Assembly: GCF_003410055.1 (NCBI RefSeq)
Contig: NZ_QUZK01000034.1
Span: forward strand, 62,001 to 126,000
Origin: Wenzhouxiangella sediminis
GTDB taxonomy: Bacteria; Pseudomonadota; Gammaproteobacteria; Xanthomonadales; Wenzhouxiangellaceae
Length of the DNA stretch: 64,000 bases
Direction of reading: 5' to 3'
Shown here piece after piece: positions 1,895 through 13,747 of the stretch. Positions within the stretch are counted from its first letter, which is position 1, and each line of letters begins with the position of its first letter. A program made the translations under genes and the position numbers. The notes beneath the pieces were generated by a model. That model made no database searches and was not told the origin of the DNA. It saw nothing but the letters and a program-made list of their open reading frames with translations.

Positions 1895-4012
1895 ATGCAG
1901 CGAGCAACCACGATTCGACGTCTCGCGACCCTTGCCTTCCTGCTGCCCTGGGCCCTGGCAGGCGCCCAGTCCGAACCGGAGCGAGACGCGCTGGTCGCGC
2001 TCTACCGGGCCACCGGCGGCGAGAACTGGCGTGAGCAGGACAACTGGCTCACCGACCGGCACCACTGCGCCTGGGAAGGCGTCCACTGCCGGGATGTCGA
2101 CGGCCAGCGGCGGGTCGATTTCCTCGATCTGCGCTGGCACGGACTCAGTGGACAGCTACCCGAATCCCTCGCCGGCCTGTCCGAGCTGACCGAGCTGGTA
2201 CTCAGCGACAACAGGCTCAGCGGCCCGCTGCCGGATACGCCCTGGGGGCTGCCCCGACTTCGCTTCCTGGCTGTGCACGACAACCATTTCACCGGCACCA
2301 TCCCGCAATGGCTGCTGGCGCTTGGAAAAGGCACAGGAGTGGACCTCAGCGGCAACCAATTCTCGGGATACCGAATCGGGACGTCGGAGTCCGGTGGGCA
2401 AACCGACCCCGTGAGCCTCGACCTCTCCGACAACCGGCTCGACCACCTGCCGCCGCCGGCGTGGCTGGAAGGCAAGCGCGTGACAGGTCTGGATCTCTCG
2501 GACAACCGGCTGGCGGGCTCGATCGATATGGCGACGCTTCCGCCGGACCTGCTTGAGCTCGATCTCTCGGACAACGCCCTGGCGGAAATCACGGGGCTGG
2601 ACCAAAGCGGCTCCCAGTCGCTCGCCCGTCTCGATGCATCCGGCAATCAGTTCGAATCCTGGCCGGCCGGCCTGGCCGCACTCGACCTCGCCCATCTCGA
2701 CCTCGGTGAAAACCGGCTGTCCGGTAGCTGGCCCGAGTGGCTGTCGACGATGCCCCTGGACACACTCGATCTCTCCGGCAATGAATTGTCCGGCGACTTG
2801 CCGGCCTCGGTCGGTCAACTCGAACTCATGGCGATCGATATCGGCAACAACGATTTCACCGGATCGATCGCGCCGGCGTTCGAGTCGCTGCGCACCCCCG
2901 ACTGGTCGGGCAACTGGCTGCTCGCCGCCGACAACGCCTTCAGCGGCGGTTTGCCGGACAATCTCGAATTCTCCCGCTTCAATAACGGCTACTGGCCCAA
3001 CACCTACGGTGACGTAATCGAGCAGTTCGGGCTGCGCGGCCTGGATCTGTGCTGGAACGAGCTTGAGATCAGCACGGCTGAGCGTGAAGCGATCGAAGAC
3101 GCCCAGGTCCACAGAGGCCGGGAATTGGGGTCCTGCATCGACCAAGCACGCCACGCCATCGATCCGGGCGTCGGCGGATCCTGGTTCGACCCCGAACGCA
3201 GCGGCGAAGGGCTGACCCAGATGATGCTCGACAACGGCCGAGTGATGGTCTACTGGTTCACCTACGGCAACCTGGGCTGGCGGCCCGATGAACAACTCTG
3301 GCTGGTCGGGATCGTCGAGCCCGACGAACAGTCGTTCGGACCGATCCGGCTTGCAGCCCCGGAAGGCGGCCGATTTTCATTCGGGTTTAACCGCAGCGCT
3401 CGCCGCGACTACACGGGCAGCTACACCATTCGGCAGGATCGCGTTGACGAAGATGAAAGCCGGTTCTTCTACGAGTTCCTCCGCGGCGGCATCTGCATTA
3501 CGGGCGGGTGCAGCTATGAATACGACAGCCAGCGCCTCGAGCACGATCGGCTCACGCGCCTGGCCGGCACCACCTGCGAGACGCAAAGCCCCTACCAGCA
3601 GTACGCCGGCGCCTGGTACAACCCCGAGCGCGCGGGCGAGGGCTTCGTTGTCGAAGTGTTGCCCGATGATCGAATCGTCGTCTACTGGTTTACCTACAAG
3701 CCGGACGAATCGGGGCACCAGGCCTGGATGGTCGGCAGCGGCCGCTTCCCGGACGAAGACCTCATCGTCGACCCACCCCCACCCTGGGAAACCCAGGCCG
3801 AAATGACCCTCTTCCAGCCCGTCGGCGCCGAGTTCGGCTCGCAGTTCGACCCCGCCGACGTACGCAGAGTCGAGTGGGGCGACTTCACCATCCGGTTCAC
3901 CGACGAAGACCACGGCCGCGTGTTCTGGAACAGTGAGCTCGACGGTTACGGCTCCGGTGACTACGCCATCGAGCGCCTCGCCACCCCGAAGCTGGCCGAC
4001 TGCGGGCCTTGA
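1895..4012 (+). CDS. Secreted plant-type LRR protein with two SGxWYxP-GEG/WFTY modules (paralogue 2)
   Basis: 705 residues, the longest of the three paralogues because of extra leucine-rich repeats. Signal peptide 1-24 (ends LAGAQ). The N-terminal cap reads ALVALYRATGGENW with a CAWEGVHC pair. About a dozen repeats follow with LDLSDNRL or LDLSGN cores, then a cap with LDLCWNEL and a second Cys. The two C-terminal modules start near residue 428 (GGSWFDPERSGEG) and residue 570 (AGAWYNPERAGEG, then VVYWFTYKPDESGHQAW). The start is preceded by GGAG. The module resembles glycine/tryptophan-rich repeats I recall from xanthomonad exported proteins, but I know no named function. Length variation between neighbours suggests gain or loss of LRR units after tandem duplication. 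Confidence 0.8.
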   Translation: MQRATTIRRLATLAFLLPWALAGAQSEPERDALVALYRATGGENWREQDNWLTDRHHCAWEGVHCRDVDGQRRVDFLDLRWHGLSGQLPESLAGLSELTELVLSDNRLSGPLPDTPWGLPRLRFLAVHDNHFTGTIPQWLLALGKGTGVDLSGNQFSGYRIGTSESGGQTDPVSLDLSDNRLDHLPPPAWLEGKRVTGLDLSDNRLAGSIDMATLPPDLLELDLSDNALAEITGLDQSGSQSLARLDASGNQFESWPAGLAALDLAHLDLGENRLSGSWPEWLSTMPLDTLDLSGNELSGDLPASVGQLELMAIDIGNNDFTGSIAPAFESLRTPDWSGNWLLAADNAFSGGLPDNLEFSRFNNGYWPNTYGDVIEQFGLRGLDLCWNELEISTAEREAIEDAQVHRGRELGSCIDQARHAIDPGVGGSWFDPERSGEGLTQMMLDNGRVMVYWFTYGNLGWRPDEQLWLVGIVEPDEQSFGPIRLAAPEGGRFSFGFNRSARRDYTGSYTIRQDRVDEDESRFFYEFLRGGICITGGCSYEYDSQRLEHDRLTRLAGTTCETQSPYQQYAGAWYNPERAGEGFVVEVLPDDRIVVYWFTYKPDESGHQAWMVGSGRFPDEDLIVDPPPPWETQAEMTLFQPVGAEFGSQFDPADVRRVEWGDFTIRFTDEDHGRVFWNSELDGYGSGDYAIERLATPKLADCGP

Positions 4013-7892: not shown

Positions 7893-9263
7893 TCAGCACT
7901 CAATGACATTGACAGCCAAGCCACCGCGCGAAGTCTCCTTGTACTTCGACTTCATGTCGCGCCCGGTATCGCGCATGGTCTTGATCACCTTGTCGAGACT
8001 GACGCGATGCTTGCCGTCACCGGCCATGGCCATCCGGGTGGCGTTGACCGCCTTGACCGAGCCCATGGCGTTGCGCTCGATGCAGGGAATCTGCACCAGG
8101 CCGCCGACGGGATCGCAGGTCAGCCCCAGGTTATGTTCCATGCCGATCTCGGCCGCATTTTCCACCTGCGACATGCTACCGCCGAGTGCCGCCGTCAGGC
8201 CGCCGGCGGCCATCGAACAGGCCACGCCGACTTCGCCCTGGCAGCCGACCTCGGCCCCTGAGATCGAGGCGTTTTCCTTGTAGAGGATGCCGATGGCGCC
8301 GGCGGTGAGCAGGAACTCGATGACGCCATCCTCGTCCGCACCGTCGACGAAACGCCGGTAGTAGTGCAGTACCGCCGGAATGATGCCGGCCGCGCCGTTG
8401 GTCGGCGCGGTGACGACGCGCCCGCCGGCGGCGTTCTCCTCGTTGACGGCCAGAGCGTAGAGGTTGATCCAGTCGAGTTGGTCGAGGTTTTCTTCCTTTG
8501 CTCGCGCACACAGCTTCTTGTAGAGCGCCGGCGCCCGGCGGGCCACGTTCAGGCCGCCGGGCAGCGTGCCCTCCATGCCGATGCCGCGATCGACGCATTC
8601 GCGCATGGCCTGCCAGATGGTCAGCAGGCCGTCGCGGATCTCGGCCTCGCTGCGCCAGGCCGACTCGTTGGCCAGCATCACGTCGCTGATGCGCAGGTCG
8701 TGGTCGGCGCAGATGGCGAGCAGCTCATCGCCGGTCGAGAAGGGGTACTTCAGCGGGGTCTCGTCGGCGACGATGCGATCGGCCGCGGCCTCGTCGGCGT
8801 TGACCACGAACCCGCCGCCCACCGAGTAATACTCGCGCGAGAGCAATTCCCCGCCGTCGGCGTCGAAGGCGGTGAAACGCATGCCGTTGGGATGGTGCGG
8901 CAGGGTCTGGCGCTTGTGGAAGACGAGATCCTTGCGCAGGTCCACCGCGATGTCGCGCTCCCCGCCCAGGCGCATGCGCCCGGACTCGGCGATCTCGTCC
9001 ATGCGGCGCGGGATGTGGTCCGGATCGACGCGGTCGGGCATTTCACCCTCCAGGCCGAGAATCACGGCGCGATCGGAGCCGTGCCCCCGGCCGGTGTGCC
9101 CGAGCGAGCCGAAGAGGTCCGACTGCACGCGCACTGTGCGCTCGAGCAGCCCGGCATCGGCCAGGCGCGAGACGAAAGTCGCCGCCGCCCGCATGGGCCC
9201 GACGGTGTGAGAACTCGACGGCCCGATGCCGATCTTGAAGAGGTCGAATATGCTGACAGCCAT
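7893..9263 (-). CDS. sdaA: L-serine ammonia-lyase (iron-sulfur L-serine dehydratase)
   Basis: 456 residues from [27 protein letters not shown], the hallmark N-terminus of single-chain SdaA enzymes; sequence upstream of this ATG is not conserved in type. It converts L-serine to pyruvate and ammonia with a [4Fe-4S] cluster. Cys residues in [10 protein letters not shown] and [12 protein letters not shown] are the expected cluster region, and [11 protein letters not shown] and a C-terminal substrate segment are present. Length matches the family (about 455). The gene points towards the M23 peptidase, with a heptamer repeat in the gap. Confidence 0.93.
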
Positions 9264-9369
9264 GGCGCGCAGTTTAGCTTCTTTGCCCCTTCGACAACAT
9301 CGGAACGCGCTGGATTCACAGCAGCTAAAATGCAACACTCTGCGATCGCGACATTCGCCGAAAGACCTC

Positions 9370-9600
9370 ATGAAACTCAAGTTCTACACACGCCCGGACT
9401 GCAGCCTGTGCACCAAGGCGGAAGCCCTGCTCGCCGAAGGCGGCTTCGGCAACGCCTACGAGAAGGTCAACATCGAATCCGACCTGGAGCTGCTCGACCG
9501 CTACGGCGACAAGATCCCGGTGGTCCACAACACCGAAACCGGCGAGAAACTGTCCTGGCCGTTCACCGCCTCGCAGGTGCGTGAACTGGTCGCCGACTGA
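9370..9600 (+). CDS. Glutaredoxin-like protein (DUF836 family)
   Basis: 76 residues from [21 protein letters not shown]. The CxxC pair (CSLC) lies at the expected position after the first strand, and [23 protein letters not shown] matches the cis-proline loop (IPV) and substrate edge of the thioredoxin fold. It is probably a thiol-disulfide oxidoreductase of the small DUF836 group. The next gene begins inside its last codons, which suggests co-transcription, though no functional link is evident. It diverges from sdaA across 106 bases. Confidence 0.75.
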
Positions 9601-11416
9601 CGTGACGCAGGCCATTTCCCACGTCGATGCCGCCCGGCTGGAGCAGGCCCTGCTGGCCGGCATCGCCAATGTGTTCCGCCGCCGCGACCACATCAACGCC
9701 ATCAACGTCTTCCCGGTCGCCGACAGCGATACCGGCACCAACCTCGCGTTTACCCTGGCCAGCGTGCGCCGGGCCATCGAGGGCGAAGCCGGCCGCAGTC
9801 TGCCCGATCTGCTCCGAGAGGTCGCCGACGCCGCGCTCGACGGCGCCCGCGGCAACTCGGGCGCAATCATGGCGCAGTACTTCCACGGCCTGAGCGAGTC
9901 TTCCCGCGATTTCCAGGTGCTCGACGGCAAGCGCCTGGCCCAGGTCTCGGCCGCCGGCGCCCGTTCGGCCTGGTCGGCCATGACCAACCCGGTGCCCGGC
10001 ACCCTGCCGACGGTGCTCGAGGACTTCGCCGACGAATTGCTGCGCGTCACCCGCGACGGCGTCGAAGACATCCGCGAACTGTTCGAGCGCGGCCTGGCCC
10101 GGGCGCGCAAGTCGCTGGCCGCCACGCCCGAGCAGCTCAGCGCCCTGGCCGATGCGGGCGTGGTCGATGCCGGCGCCCAGGGTTTCGTCGACCTGCTCGA
10201 GGGCATCCGGCGCTACATGCGCAGCGGCCGGATGCCGCGCTTCGCCGCCGAATCGGCGCCGCCGGCGGCCGCCGGCGAGCGCGAGCACGCCGCACCGGAC
10301 AAACACCGCTTCTGCACCGAGTGCCTGATCGAGGGCGACCGTCTCGACGTCATCCGGCTGCGCGAACGACTCGACGCACTCGACGCCAGCTCCCTGGTGG
10401 TGGCCGGCGGGGAGCGGCGCGCCCGGGTGCATATCCACACCGACAGCCCGGGCGAAGTGTTCAGTCTCTGCGGCGAGTTCGGCGAACTGCGGCAGCAGAA
10501 AGCCGACGACATGACCCGCCAGCACGGCCTGATGAACCACGCCGGCAGCGTGGCCATCGTCACCGATTCGGCCGCCGACCTGCCGGCCGAAGAGGTCGAG
10601 CGCCTCGGCATCCACGTGGTGGCCGTGCGGCTGAACTTCGGCGACGAGGAATTCCTCGACAAGCTGACCATGACGCCGGCGCAGTTCTACGCCCGCCTGG
10701 CCGAATCCCCGGTGCACCCGCAGACCTCGCAGCCGCCGCCGGCCGACTTTCGCCGCCAGTACGAACTGCTGACCTCGCACGGACTCGACGTGCTCGGCAT
10801 CCAGATCTCCGGGCGCCTCAGCGGCACCCTGCAGGCCGCGCGCCGGACCGCCGAGCGGGTCGATCCCGAACGCATCGAAGTGATGGACACGCGCAACGCC
10901 GCCTGCGGCCAGGGGCTGATGGTGCTCTGGGCCGCCGAGGCCGCGGCGAAGGGCTGGGAGCGCGTCGCCATCCGGACCCGTCTGACCGAAATGCGCGACA
11001 GCTTCAAGACCTACGCCCTGGCCCGCGACCTCAGCTGGGGCGTGCGCGGCGGCCGCGCCAAGCCCTGGATGGAGACGCTCGCGCGCAAGCTGCGCCTCAA
11101 CCCCATCCTGACCGCCTCGCCGGAAGGCGAGCTGGTCGCCCGCGGCGTGATCGCCGGACGCCGAGCAACGGTGGAGAAATTCGCCCGCTACCTGCTGCGC
11201 CGGATGGATCCCGGGGCGACCTACCGCGTGATCATCAGCCACACCGACGCCGAGGCCGACGCAAAGGCCCTGCGCAAACGCATCCTGGCCGGTCACCCGC
11301 AGGTCGACGCCTGCTGGGTGGTGGAAGCCAGCCCGGCCGTGGGCGCCCACGCCGGCCCGGGCACCCTGATCGCCGGCATGCACGTGTGGGAACCGCCGGA
11401 GGCGCGTCATGATTGA
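9581..11416 (+). CDS. DAK2-DegV fusion protein, predicted single-chain fatty acid kinase
   Basis: 611 residues. The N-terminal DhaL/DAK2 domain has NVFPVADSDTGTN (Mg-ATP aspartates) and ARGNSGAIMAQYFHGL, the signatures of FakA. A linker region is followed by a complete DegV/FakB fold: IVTDSAADLPAEEV, TSQPPP, SGRLSGTLQAAR and DTRNAACGQGLM. In Firmicutes the separate FakA and FakB proteins phosphorylate fatty acids to acyl-phosphate. Here kinase and fatty-acid carrier are one chain, and the stop overlaps plsY, whose enzyme consumes acyl-phosphate. GTG at 9581 has AGG upstream; GTG at 9602 is an alternative. Activity is inferred. Confidence 0.85.
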   Translation: MNWSPTDVTQAISHVDAARLEQALLAGIANVFRRRDHINAINVFPVADSDTGTNLAFTLASVRRAIEGEAGRSLPDLLREVADAALDGARGNSGAIMAQYFHGLSESSRDFQVLDGKRLAQVSAAGARSAWSAMTNPVPGTLPTVLEDFADELLRVTRDGVEDIRELFERGLARARKSLAATPEQLSALADAGVVDAGAQGFVDLLEGIRRYMRSGRMPRFAAESAPPAAAGEREHAAPDKHRFCTECLIEGDRLDVIRLRERLDALDASSLVVAGGERRARVHIHTDSPGEVFSLCGEFGELRQQKADDMTRQHGLMNHAGSVAIVTDSAADLPAEEVERLGIHVVAVRLNFGDEEFLDKLTMTPAQFYARLAESPVHPQTSQPPPADFRRQYELLTSHGLDVLGIQISGRLSGTLQAARRTAERVDPERIEVMDTRNAACGQGLMVLWAAEAAAKGWERVAIRTRLTEMRDSFKTYALARDLSWGVRGGRAKPWMETLARKLRLNPILTASPEGELVARGVIAGRRATVEKFARYLLRRMDPGATYRVIISHTDAEADAKALRKRILAGHPQVDACWVVEASPAVGAHAGPGTLIAGMHVWEPPEARHD

Positions 11417-12047
11417 ACTGGCGCTGGTCCTCGTCGGCGGCTACCTGCTGGGATCGATCTCCGGCTCCCTGCTGCTCGGCCGCCTGCGCGGCGTCGACAT
11501 CCGCACCATGGGCTCGGGCAACGCCGGCGGCACCAACGCCCTGCGTACCGTGGGTTGGCAGTTTGCCCTCGGCGTGGTCCTCATCGACGTCGGCAAGGGC
11601 GCAGCGGCCGCCGGCCTGCTGCCCCTGGCCGCGCCGTGGCTCTCGGCCGAGCCGCTCGACTTCACGACCCTGGCGGCGGCCGGCGGATTCACGGCCGTGG
11701 TCGGCCACGTCTGGCCGCTGTACTTCCGCTTTCGCGGCGGCAAGGGCGCGGGCACGGCCGTCGGCGCGATTGCGGTCGTGGCGCCCTGGTGCCTGGCGCC
11801 GCTGTTGCTGGTCTGGCTGGTCACGCTCATCGGCACCGGCTATGTCGGCCTGGCCACCATCCTGGCCGGCCTGAGCCTGGTGCCGTCGATGTGGATGCTC
11901 GGCCCCGCCCCCTTGCCGAATGCCCTGGCCGCGCTGGCCATCGCCCTGGCCGTACTGCTGGTCTACACCCACCGCGCCAACCTGGCGCGCATGCGCGCCG
12001 GTGACGAGAACCGCTTCGAGAAAGCTCGCCTGCTCAAGCGGCGCTGA
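11409..12047 (+). CDS. plsY: Glycerol-3-phosphate acyltransferase PlsY (acyl-phosphate dependent)
   Basis: 212 residues, membrane protein with about five segments. It transfers acyl groups from acyl-phosphate to glycerol-3-phosphate, the first step of phospholipid synthesis. The three family motifs are visible: GSGNAGGTNALR, GHVWPLYFRFRGGKGAGT and the C-terminal His/Asn region (YTHRANLARMRAGDENRF). The start overlaps the end of the DAK2-DegV gene by eight bases, so translation is probably coupled. The context suggests exogenous or recycled fatty acids are fed directly into this step. Confidence 0.93.
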   Translation: MIELALVLVGGYLLGSISGSLLLGRLRGVDIRTMGSGNAGGTNALRTVGWQFALGVVLIDVGKGAAAAGLLPLAAPWLSAEPLDFTTLAAAGGFTAVVGHVWPLYFRFRGGKGAGTAVGAIAVVAPWCLAPLLLVWLVTLIGTGYVGLATILAGLSLVPSMWMLGPAPLPNALAALAIALAVLLVYTHRANLARMRAGDENRFEKARLLKRR

Positions 12048-12066: not shown

Positions 12067-13023
12067 ATGAAACCCGGTCTGCATCAACTCTATGCCCGCC
12101 TGGCCGACGGCGAGCTTCACAACGGCGCGGCCCTGGCCGAAGAGCTGGGCGTCACCCGCGCGGCGGTGTGGAAGCGCATGCAGGCGCTTCGCGACATGGG
12201 GCTGGAGATTTCGGGCACGGCCGGCGACGGTTATCGCCTGCCGCGTCCGATCGAGCTGCTCGATGCCGACGCCATCCGGCGGCAGCTCAGTAGCGGGGAG
12301 CTCGAGGTGGACGTCGTCGGGGCCGTCGACTCCACCAACGCGCGGCTCGCGGCCGCCGGCGGCCCGCACGCCCGCGCCCTGCTGGCCGAGGCGCAGACGG
12401 CCGGACGCGGGCGGCGCGGACGCGGCTGGCAATCACCGCCGGGCAGCGGGCTCTACCTCTCGCTGGCCTGGCACTTCGAGTCGGGCCTGGCCGGCCTGGC
12501 CCCGCTCAGCCTCGTCGTCGGCCTGACCGTCGCCGAAACGCTGCGGCGGGCCAGCGGGGCGGATGTCACGGTCAAATGGCCCAACGACCTGTTCGTCGAG
12601 GCGGGCAAGCTCGGCGGCTGCCTGGTCGAACTCGGCGGCGCCGCCGAAGGTCCCTGCCGGGCGATCATCGGCATCGGCATCAACCTGTTCGACACAGCGT
12701 CCATGGCCAGCGTCGACCAGGCCTGGACGGCACTGGGACGCCACGGCGAGCCGGTCGGTCGCAACGATCTCGCCGCCCGGCTGCTGGACGCACTGGCCGC
12801 CGCGCTGGCGGACTTCGACCGGCACGGCTTCGACGATTTTCTCGCCCGCTGGCCCGCGTTCGACGCCCTGGCCGACCGTCCGGTGCGCGTCATTCACGGC
12901 AACGGCTCGGAGATGACCGGAACGGCCCGCGGCATCGACGGCCAGGGTCGTCTGCAGCTCGAAACCGATGACGGCCGCCGCCGCGCGATCGCCAGCGGGG
13001 AGGTGAGCGTCCGTGTCCGCTGA
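12067..13023 (+). CDS. birA: Bifunctional biotin operon repressor / biotin-[acetyl-CoA-carboxylase] ligase
   Basis: 318 residues. An N-terminal winged helix (GAALAEELGVTRAAVWKRMQALRDMG) is followed by the ligase domain with DSTNARL, the nucleotide loop GRGRRGRGWQSPPGSGLYLS and KWPNDLF, then a C-terminal SH3-like domain (GTARGIDGQGRLQLE). It adenylates biotin and attaches it to carboxyl carrier protein; the HTH suggests it also represses biotin genes. It lies 19 bases after plsY and overlaps coaX by 11 bases. bioC lies 3 kb downstream. Confidence 0.92.
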   Translation: MKPGLHQLYARLADGELHNGAALAEELGVTRAAVWKRMQALRDMGLEISGTAGDGYRLPRPIELLDADAIRRQLSSGELEVDVVGAVDSTNARLAAAGGPHARALLAEAQTAGRGRRGRGWQSPPGSGLYLSLAWHFESGLAGLAPLSLVVGLTVAETLRRASGADVTVKWPNDLFVEAGKLGGCLVELGGAAEGPCRAIIGIGINLFDTASMASVDQAWTALGRHGEPVGRNDLAARLLDALAAALADFDRHGFDDFLARWPAFDALADRPVRVIHGNGSEMTGTARGIDGQGRLQLETDDGRRRAIASGEVSVRVR

Positions 13024-13747
13024 CCTGGTCATCGACATCGGCCATTCCCGGCTCAAATGGGCCCGGCTGGTCGACGGCGCTCTGGACGCGACCAGCGTCG
13101 GGCGGGCCTCGACCGACGAAGCCGACGCCCTGTACGCTGCGCTCGAGCGCAGCGACTGTCGTCGGGCCCTGATTTCCGGCCAGTCGCGGATCGACTCGGT
13201 CACGCGGATTACCGATCGTCTACGGCAGCTGGGCGCGCAAGTCGATATCATTGCAACCGGCGATCGAACGCTGCCGGTAGCGCCCGCCTACAAGTCGCTG
13301 GGCTGCGACCGCTGGCTGGCGCTGCAGAAGCCCTGGATGGAGGGGCCCGCGCCATTCGTCGTGGTCGATTGCGGCACGGCGATCACCGTCGACCTGGTCG
13401 ACGGCGAAGGCCGCCACCGCGGCGGCTGGATCATGCCCGGCATTCACACTGCGCGCGGCGGACTGTTCGCCCGCGCCCCGGGCCTGAACCGCCCACTGCC
13501 GGAGGCCGGCGACATCGACCGGCCGGCGCGCGACACCGGCACCGCGCTGGCGCGGGGGGGACTGATGCTGGCCGCCGGCGGCATCGATCGCGTCGTTCGG
13601 GCGGCCGAACGCGCCGCCGGAGATCAAGTCAGCCTGTGGCTGACCGGGGGGAACGCCGCCGAGCTGGCCTCGCACCTGGAGCGGGCCGCCCGGCACGAGC
13701 AGCACCTGGTGCTTCACGGACTGGCCATGGCAACGCAAGCGAAATGA
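13013..13747 (+). CDS. coaX: Type III pantothenate kinase
   Basis: 244 residues from a GTG that overlaps the end of birA. It performs the first step of coenzyme A synthesis, phosphorylating pantothenate. Visible motifs are DIGHSRLKW (phosphate-binding loop of the ASKHA fold), VVDCGTAITVDLV and GGWIMPGIHTARGGL. birA-coaX adjacency is common in proteobacteria, where this protein was first called Baf. It overlaps the following SPOR gene by four bases. Confidence 0.9.
   Translation: MSADLVIDIGHSRLKWARLVDGALDATSVGRASTDEADALYAALERSDCRRALISGQSRIDSVTRITDRLRQLGAQVDIIATGDRTLPVAPAYKSLGCDRWLALQKPWMEGPAPFVVVDCGTAITVDLVDGEGRHRGGWIMPGIHTARGGLFARAPGLNRPLPEAGDIDRPARDTGTALARGGLMLAAGGIDRVVRAAERAAGDQVSLWLTGGNAAELASHLERAARHEQHLVLHGLAMATQAK

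Follow-up and report, generated by a model that had tools for sequence, protein, structure and literature searches.

The closest described counterpart of the protein considered here is the two-protein fatty acid kinase (Fak) of Staphylococcus, Streptococcus and Bacillus, in which the kinase FakA works together with exchangeable FakB proteins. As described in PMC9136124, the Staphylococcus aureus FakA protein comprises three domains: FakA_N (ATP), FakA_L (dimerisation; Cys240, His282 and His284) and FakA_C, which docks FakB. The latter domain is related to FakB but devoid of the fatty-acid tunnel, and a FakA_NL protein without FakA_C is still active on FakB1 (Km 0.99 versus 0.09 µM) (PMC9136124). 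Passages in PMC10146087 and PMC12594616 attribute the fatty acid kinase strategy to Gram-positive bacteria; Gram-negative bacteria, according to these papers, use acyl-coenzyme A or acyl-acyl carrier protein (acyl-ACP) synthetases. Here we describe a gene in a 64,000-nucleotide (nt) stretch of the Wenzhouxiangella sediminis genome (assembly GCF_003410055.1, contig NZ_QUZK01000034.1, forward-strand positions 62,001-126,000; the window) that encodes a FakA_NL-FakB fusion and overlaps plsY, the gene for the acyl-phosphate:glycerol-3-phosphate acyltransferase. We consider it very likely that this protein is a single-chain fatty acid kinase whose acyl-phosphate product goes to the co-translated PlsY enzyme.

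When the 604-residue form of the fusion was run against Pfam, the domains Dak2, FakA-like_M and DegV were found in this order, all of them above the curated cut-offs. From residue 317 onwards the protein corresponds to DegV (profile positions 2-273 of 280), and it also exceeds the cut-off of the DegV family TIGR00762 (226.9 versus 99.7 bits). The original prediction of one polypeptide with DAK2 and DegV motifs is thus borne out by the open reading frame, the motifs and the Pfam matches alike. Its further description as a FakA-FakB-like single chain applies to the kinase and FakB parts and not to the whole of FakA, as no FakA C-terminal family was listed in the Pfam search of the 604-residue protein. 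A fusion of a complete FakA with FakB can be dismissed on the same grounds, and the length (551-623 residues among 82 distinct fusions, the shortest being a truncated entry) leaves no room for it. Judged by its sequence, the protein is FakA_NL joined to FakB, with FakB occupying the place of the missing FakB-docking domain FakA_C. The tethered FakB may represent a natural compensation for the missing docking domain, which would be unnecessary when FakB is held in place covalently; this fits the absence of FakA_C. The 82 distinct homologues, and the occurrence of the fusion in genomes assembled into a single contig (G018, G763, G781, G834), rule out a chance reading frame or an assembly artefact.

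The residues on which S. aureus Fak activity depends (Asp38/Asp40, Cys240, His282, His284 and FakB1 Arg173, as reported in PMC9136124) are almost invariant in the fusion family. We counted them in the 82 distinct fusions that remained after stretches shorter than 550 residues, sequences with internal stops, L088 and near-copies had been left out. Asp41 of the window protein (FakA Asp38) is kept in 81 of the 82 fusions, with one gap, and Asp43 (FakA Asp40), Cys238, His277 and His279 (FakA Cys240, His282 and His284) as well as Arg485 (FakB1 Arg173) are each present in all of them. Of the 82 sequences, 80 retain the TSQ threonine and 78 the last motif's histidine. The FakB residue numbers Thr61, Ser93 and His266 did not fit the FakB1 numbering and were not used. 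An AlphaFold2 model of the fusion, built from 25 sequences, has a mean predicted local distance difference test (pLDDT) score of 82.8. Its N-terminal part superimposes on S. aureus FakA_N (8vit; Z 32.0, root-mean-square deviation (rmsd) 1.6, 211 aligned residues), and its C-terminal part on two fatty-acid-binding structures, the DegV protein 2dt8 (Z 31.9, rmsd 2.4, 277 aligned) and FakB1 (5uto; Z 30.5, rmsd 2.5, 281 aligned). The VIA-align 2 match list mainly spans residues 7-208 and 313-599, and missing folds elsewhere are uninformative. The N-terminal domain also shares its fold with dihydroxyacetone kinase (Escherichia coli DhaL, Z 23.6 and 23.3), and the C-terminal part is distantly related to DhaK (Z about 17); both resemble the fusion clearly less than FakA and FakB do, and the fusion, unlike these proteins, possesses the FakA middle and DegV domains.

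Our genome surveys, in which taxa are given as codes, covered 21 genomes of the genus, 150 of the order, 370 of the class and 397 of the phylum. We take the searched order to be Xanthomonadales/Lysobacterales, because named relatives at 49-56% identity bear those names; the nearest named relatives are Wenzhouxiangella records (87% identity and below), a genus placed in Chromatiales by the NCBI taxonomy. The same protein occurs in 20 of the 21 genomes of the genus. In the order, 80 of the 150 genomes gave a match, and 74 of these were counted as fusions, including three that touch a contig edge (G005, G844, G874) and one that is split over two frames (G878). Matches were found in 18 of the 370 class genomes (13 fusions, one of them truncated, the remainder consisting of the DegV part only) and in 8 of the 397 phylum genomes (two fusions). 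All 13 FakA middle domains detected in the class lie within fusions, and no free-standing FakA was seen among the 370 genomes. Matches in the order, the class and Firmicutes rule out that the fusion is unique to this genus or class. Most genomes of the family codes f2 and f3 (e.g., G030, G802, G751) that are devoid of fusion and plsY carry a free-standing DegV-family reading frame, often of about 320-350 residues; the class search included three genomes of this kind (G030, G167, G263), and no FakA middle domain was found in them.

Within the order, the fusion is inherited together with PlsY. PlsY was found in 75 of the 150 genomes; 71 genomes contain both proteins, 72 neither, three only the fusion (these are the three contig-edge cases) and four only PlsY. 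Counted across 63 genera, the corresponding numbers are 35, 24, two and two (Fisher p 1.8e-33 for genomes and 6e-13 for genera, neither corrected for kinship). The two genes lie side by side on the same strand in 69 of the 71 genomes that possess both; in G779 they are found near the ends of two contigs, and in G339 they are truly apart. Fusion and plsY thus form a conserved pair across this order. After removal of truncated loci and of those with internal stops, 85 distinct loci remained, 68 of them with plsY in the fetched stretch, and overlaps of 1, 4 or 8 nt were present in 42 of these 68; the 357-nt gap of L102 in this set is the product of a broken match. Two of the genomes with PlsY only appear to have lost the fusion. 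A short FakB-like remnant, probably a decayed fusion judging by its similarity (35% over about 60 residues, E 2.5e-6), is located just upstream of the intact plsY gene in G808 (L093, positions 3434-3607, minus strand), and in G879 a glutaredoxin gene and plsY occur with no fusion between them; both genomes keep PlsX.

The strongest argument for function is the frequent absence of PlsX, which normally provides acyl-phosphate, and it is independent of the gene overlap. PlsX was found in 70 and PlsB in 148 of the 150 order genomes; among the 71 carriers of both fusion and PlsY, PlsX was found in 39 and not found in the other 32. At the junction of rpmF and fabH, none of the 24 PlsX-negative genomes checked contains plsX (the spacing is only 45-271 nt), whereas plsX lies between the two genes in all six PlsX-positive controls. 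An assembly gap as the cause of the missing PlsX is therefore ruled out for 24 of the 32 genomes, the eight others not having been read at this junction. The PlsX state changes at least six times on the fusion tree, and we interpret these changes as losses because the home locus is shared. PlsY without PlsX occurs in 33 order genomes, 32 of which possess the fusion; the exception is G764, where rpmF was not found either and whose assembly may be missing this stretch. In the carriers in which no PlsX was found, no source of acyl-phosphate other than the fusion was seen. PlsY thus probably receives its acyl-phosphate from the fusion, in many genomes as the sole known supplier. PlsX loss in many carriers makes the acyl-phosphate reading stronger than it would be from the window sequence alone. 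In vitro, Bacillus subtilis FakA/B together with PlsY from B. subtilis or E. coli is reported to yield lysophosphatidic acid without PlsX (PMC13400652).

Some genomes of the order deviate in their set of acyltransferases. The family with code f247 (e.g., G766, G780, G786) has PlsX without its usual partner PlsY: a PlsX match is present in 25/25 genomes (in pieces in G774), 24 have no PlsY, and none possesses the fusion. In G774 itself (L096), PlsY is present, there is no match to PlsB, and PlsX is found in three pieces with an internal stop. In G788 (93% complete, 40 contigs) the fusion and PlsY were found, and neither PlsX nor PlsB; if this is real, fusion and PlsY would provide the only known first acylation step of this organism.

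From the observed architecture, conserved residues, linkage, co-inheritance and absence of plsX in many carriers, we infer a kinase activity, a fatty acid as the ligand and a hand-over of the product to PlsY. The FakA_N-like domain would bind ATP, and the Cys-His-His residues would come from the FakA_L-like domain, which probably also makes a dimer contact. The attached FakB-type domain would hold a free fatty acid, either taken up or released within the cell, and present it to the kinase; the resulting acyl-phosphate would then be used by PlsY to acylate glycerol-3-phosphate. The consumption of acyl-phosphate by PlsY would be the same as in the PlsX-PlsY route of phosphatidic acid synthesis; in contrast to that route, the acyl-phosphate would be derived from a free fatty acid and ATP instead of acyl-ACP. 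With the two-protein FakA and FakB system, the fusion shares the FakA_N, FakA_L and FakB/DegV domains, the catalytic residues and the acyl-phosphate link. It differs by being a gammaproteobacterial single chain without FakA_C that adjoins plsY, and it has one fixed FakB per kinase where the two-protein system has exchangeable ones. The overlap of the fusion gene with plsY, which is of exactly eight nucleotides as originally described, speaks for no more than co-expression and translational coupling. Fusion plus overlap had been taken to predict direct channelling of the fatty acid; this does not follow from gene overlap, and the overlap was discarded as a proof of channelling since the argument does not reach that far.

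Several observations weigh against this assignment. The fusion scores below the NCBIfam cut-offs for FakA (FakA_VfrB, 160.8 versus 975 bits; YloV, 260.3 versus 396.1 bits) and below that of the NCBI FakB1 equivalog (112 versus 350 bits); it thus lies outside NCBI's FakA and FakB1 equivalogs, and yet it should work like Fak. The column of FakB1 Arg205, a residue with a role in membrane and FakA_C docking (the wedge), is occupied by Ala518 in the window protein and by Arg in 10 of the 82 fusions, in a region where we judge the alignment to be loose. In the structural model, the nucleotide loop (residues 38-46) has pLDDT values below 50, and how the domains are positioned relative to each other is uncertain (predicted template modelling score 0.59); the top Foldseek entries are full-length FakA of the Streptococcus suis FakA-FakB2 complex, and the domain placement is not comparable with that complex because the rmsd amounts to 25 Å. 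The fusion/PlsY table, taken alone, overstates the case because one deletion is enough to remove two adjoining genes at once. Furthermore, the genome from which the window is derived keeps both PlsX and PlsB, so that the fusion is not its only route. Finally, in all 11 gammaproteobacterial fusion genomes outside the order PlsY is located on a different contig from the fusion, and plsY was not found in any of the 11 fetched stretches around the fusion (in G183, the stretch downstream of the fusion is truncated where the contig ends).

The retention of PlsX in 39 of the 71 carriers, the window's genome included, suits a different use of the product, in which the acyl-phosphate is mainly converted to acyl-ACP via PlsX and recycled into fatty acid synthesis, with PlsY as a secondary user; such feeding of acyl-ACP by Fak and PlsX is known from Gram-positive bacteria (PMC10146087). 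We regard this as unlikely, given the 32 carriers in which no PlsX was found, the home locus being without plsX in 24 of 24 cases checked, and the 26 of the 150 order genomes with PlsX and no PlsY, all of which are without the fusion.

Beyond the order, the genomic setting is a different one. With none of 11 cases adjoining plsY, the fusion is usually found away from this gene, an outcome that the original prediction had named as counting against it; the proposed coupling thus stands within the order (69/71) and fails outside it. In two of these gammaproteobacteria (L131, L134) the fusion directly follows a gspB-like gene for a type II secretion protein B. A second branch comprises single-chain fusions, about 31% identical to the window protein, of Listeria innocua and L. 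monocytogenes (annotated as 'DegV family protein'), Enterococcus raffinosus and Acetoanaerobium noterae (both unannotated), which have the same one-chain architecture; the L. monocytogenes strain also carries a separate DAK2 protein. These Firmicutes proteins group with those of the gammaproteobacterial genomes G047, G275 and G349 (SH-aLRT 100 in a quick tree with long branches). Unlike the window gene with its plsY neighbour, the Firmicutes fusions lie between DUF2177 and DUF1295 genes; genes of both families accompany the fusion in all four Firmicutes and in G047 and G349 (L143, L144, L145, L146, L137, L138), and none was seen in G275. DUF1295 is steroid-reductase/ICMT-like, and both families are membrane proteins; a DUF2878 gene is additionally present in one of the two gammaproteobacteria with this neighbourhood. 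Apart from the second branch, no other shared neighbour of the fusion was seen outside the order. The second-branch locus is possibly an uncharacterised lipid operon fed by acyl-phosphate. The architecture extends beyond this order, and the link to plsY is one of at least two settings. That sister fusions adjoin DUF1295/DUF2177 membrane proteins, and that those of other gammaproteobacteria sit elsewhere, could also mean that the kinase acts on another lipid or hydrophobic acid and lies near plsY through shared lipid regulation, not a shared substrate. The catalytic Arg of the FakB-type domain, invariant in 82/82 sequences, the fatty acids bound by the closest structures and the tie to PlsY even where PlsX is absent make this decidedly improbable.

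The fusion tree follows the family codes with 11 changes, the least possible number being 10, and the gene has therefore mostly been inherited vertically. Such inheritance of the pair, and the presence of both genes apart from each other in G339, would be compatible with neutral synteny, i.e., an ancestral gene order kept by chance and without functional meaning; we give this very little credence, as adjacency is kept in 69/71 genomes whose sequences diverge down to about 43% identity and often overlap by 1-8 nt, the two genes are present or absent jointly, and PlsY persists in genomes devoid of PlsX. That the chain is no kinase but a regulatory or degenerate DegV protein, as the scores under the equivalog cut-offs might suggest, is the least credible option of all, since decay would not keep the Mg-binding Asp pair, the Cys-His-His residues and the catalytic Arg (nearly) invariant in 82 fusions.

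A search restricted to the open-access literature yielded no description of a single-chain FakAB or DAK2-DegV protein, which is no proof of absence; the fusion proteins as such are already present in databases. The data point to a kinase route in Gram-negative bacteria and to a natural replacement of PlsX. We lean towards the view that a one-piece Fak has repeatedly replaced PlsX in providing acyl-phosphate to PlsY in the order, that its members would thereby have two separate entrances into membrane lipid synthesis (PlsB for new acyl chains, and Fak-PlsY for free fatty acids that are scavenged or recycled) and that, as sampled, FakA in this class occurs solely in single-chain form. A passage in PMC11633183 calls the Xanthomonadales the only bacteria known to keep PlsB/PlsC alone; this statement has to be set against the detection of PlsY in half of the genomes of the order that we take to be Xanthomonadales. 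According to a passage in PMC9136124, no structure shows the formed active site of Fak; an enzyme consisting of one chain cannot fall apart and might allow its capture.

The fusion gene is part of a run of genes on the same strand that encode a glutaredoxin-like protein, the fusion, PlsY, BirA and a type III pantothenate kinase (Table 1).

Table 1. Features of the fusion-plsY region in window coordinates
Feature	Position	Strand	Evidence
Serine dehydratase gene, upstream of the glutaredoxin-like gene	7893-9380	opposite	
Glutaredoxin-like gene (DUF836), directly upstream of the fusion	9370..9600	+	PF05768 E 6.7e-14
Single-chain FakA_NL-FakB fusion gene, 604 residues; alternative in-frame GTG start at 9581	9602..11416	+	
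Dak2/FakA_N kinase domain, residues 38-203	9713..10210	+	PF02734 E 8.7e-32; fold match 8vit Z 32.0
FakA-like middle domain (FakA-like_M), residues 235-308, with Cys238, His277, His279	10304..10525	+	PF21645 E 4.4e-17
DegV/FakB fatty-acid-binding-type domain, residues 317-589, with Arg485	10550..11368	+	PF02645 E 1.4e-60; TIGR00762 226.9 bits; 2dt8 Z 31.9
8-nt overlap of fusion end and plsY start, ATGATTGA	11409..11416	+	
plsY, acyl-phosphate:glycerol-3-phosphate acyltransferase, ATG start, 212 residues	11409..12047	+	TIGR00023 141 bits; PF02660 E 3.8e-43
birA (biotin ligase/repressor), directly after plsY	12067..13023	+	
Type III pantothenate kinase gene, after birA	13013..13747	+	PF03309 E 1.2e-26

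The longest reading frame of the fusion extends from the GTG codon at 9581 to 11416 (611 residues), and this codon had originally been given as the start. It is in frame; the GTG at 9602 is the more likely start, because it directly follows the stop codon of the glutaredoxin-like gene (9598-9600). The identity of the neighbouring gene product as PlsY is buttressed by scores above the cut-offs of both TIGR00023 (141 versus 137.2 bits) and PF02660 (147.8 versus 24.1 bits). A GGAGG sequence is positioned a few bases 5' of the plsY ATG codon, and birA adjoins plsY in many relatives as well.

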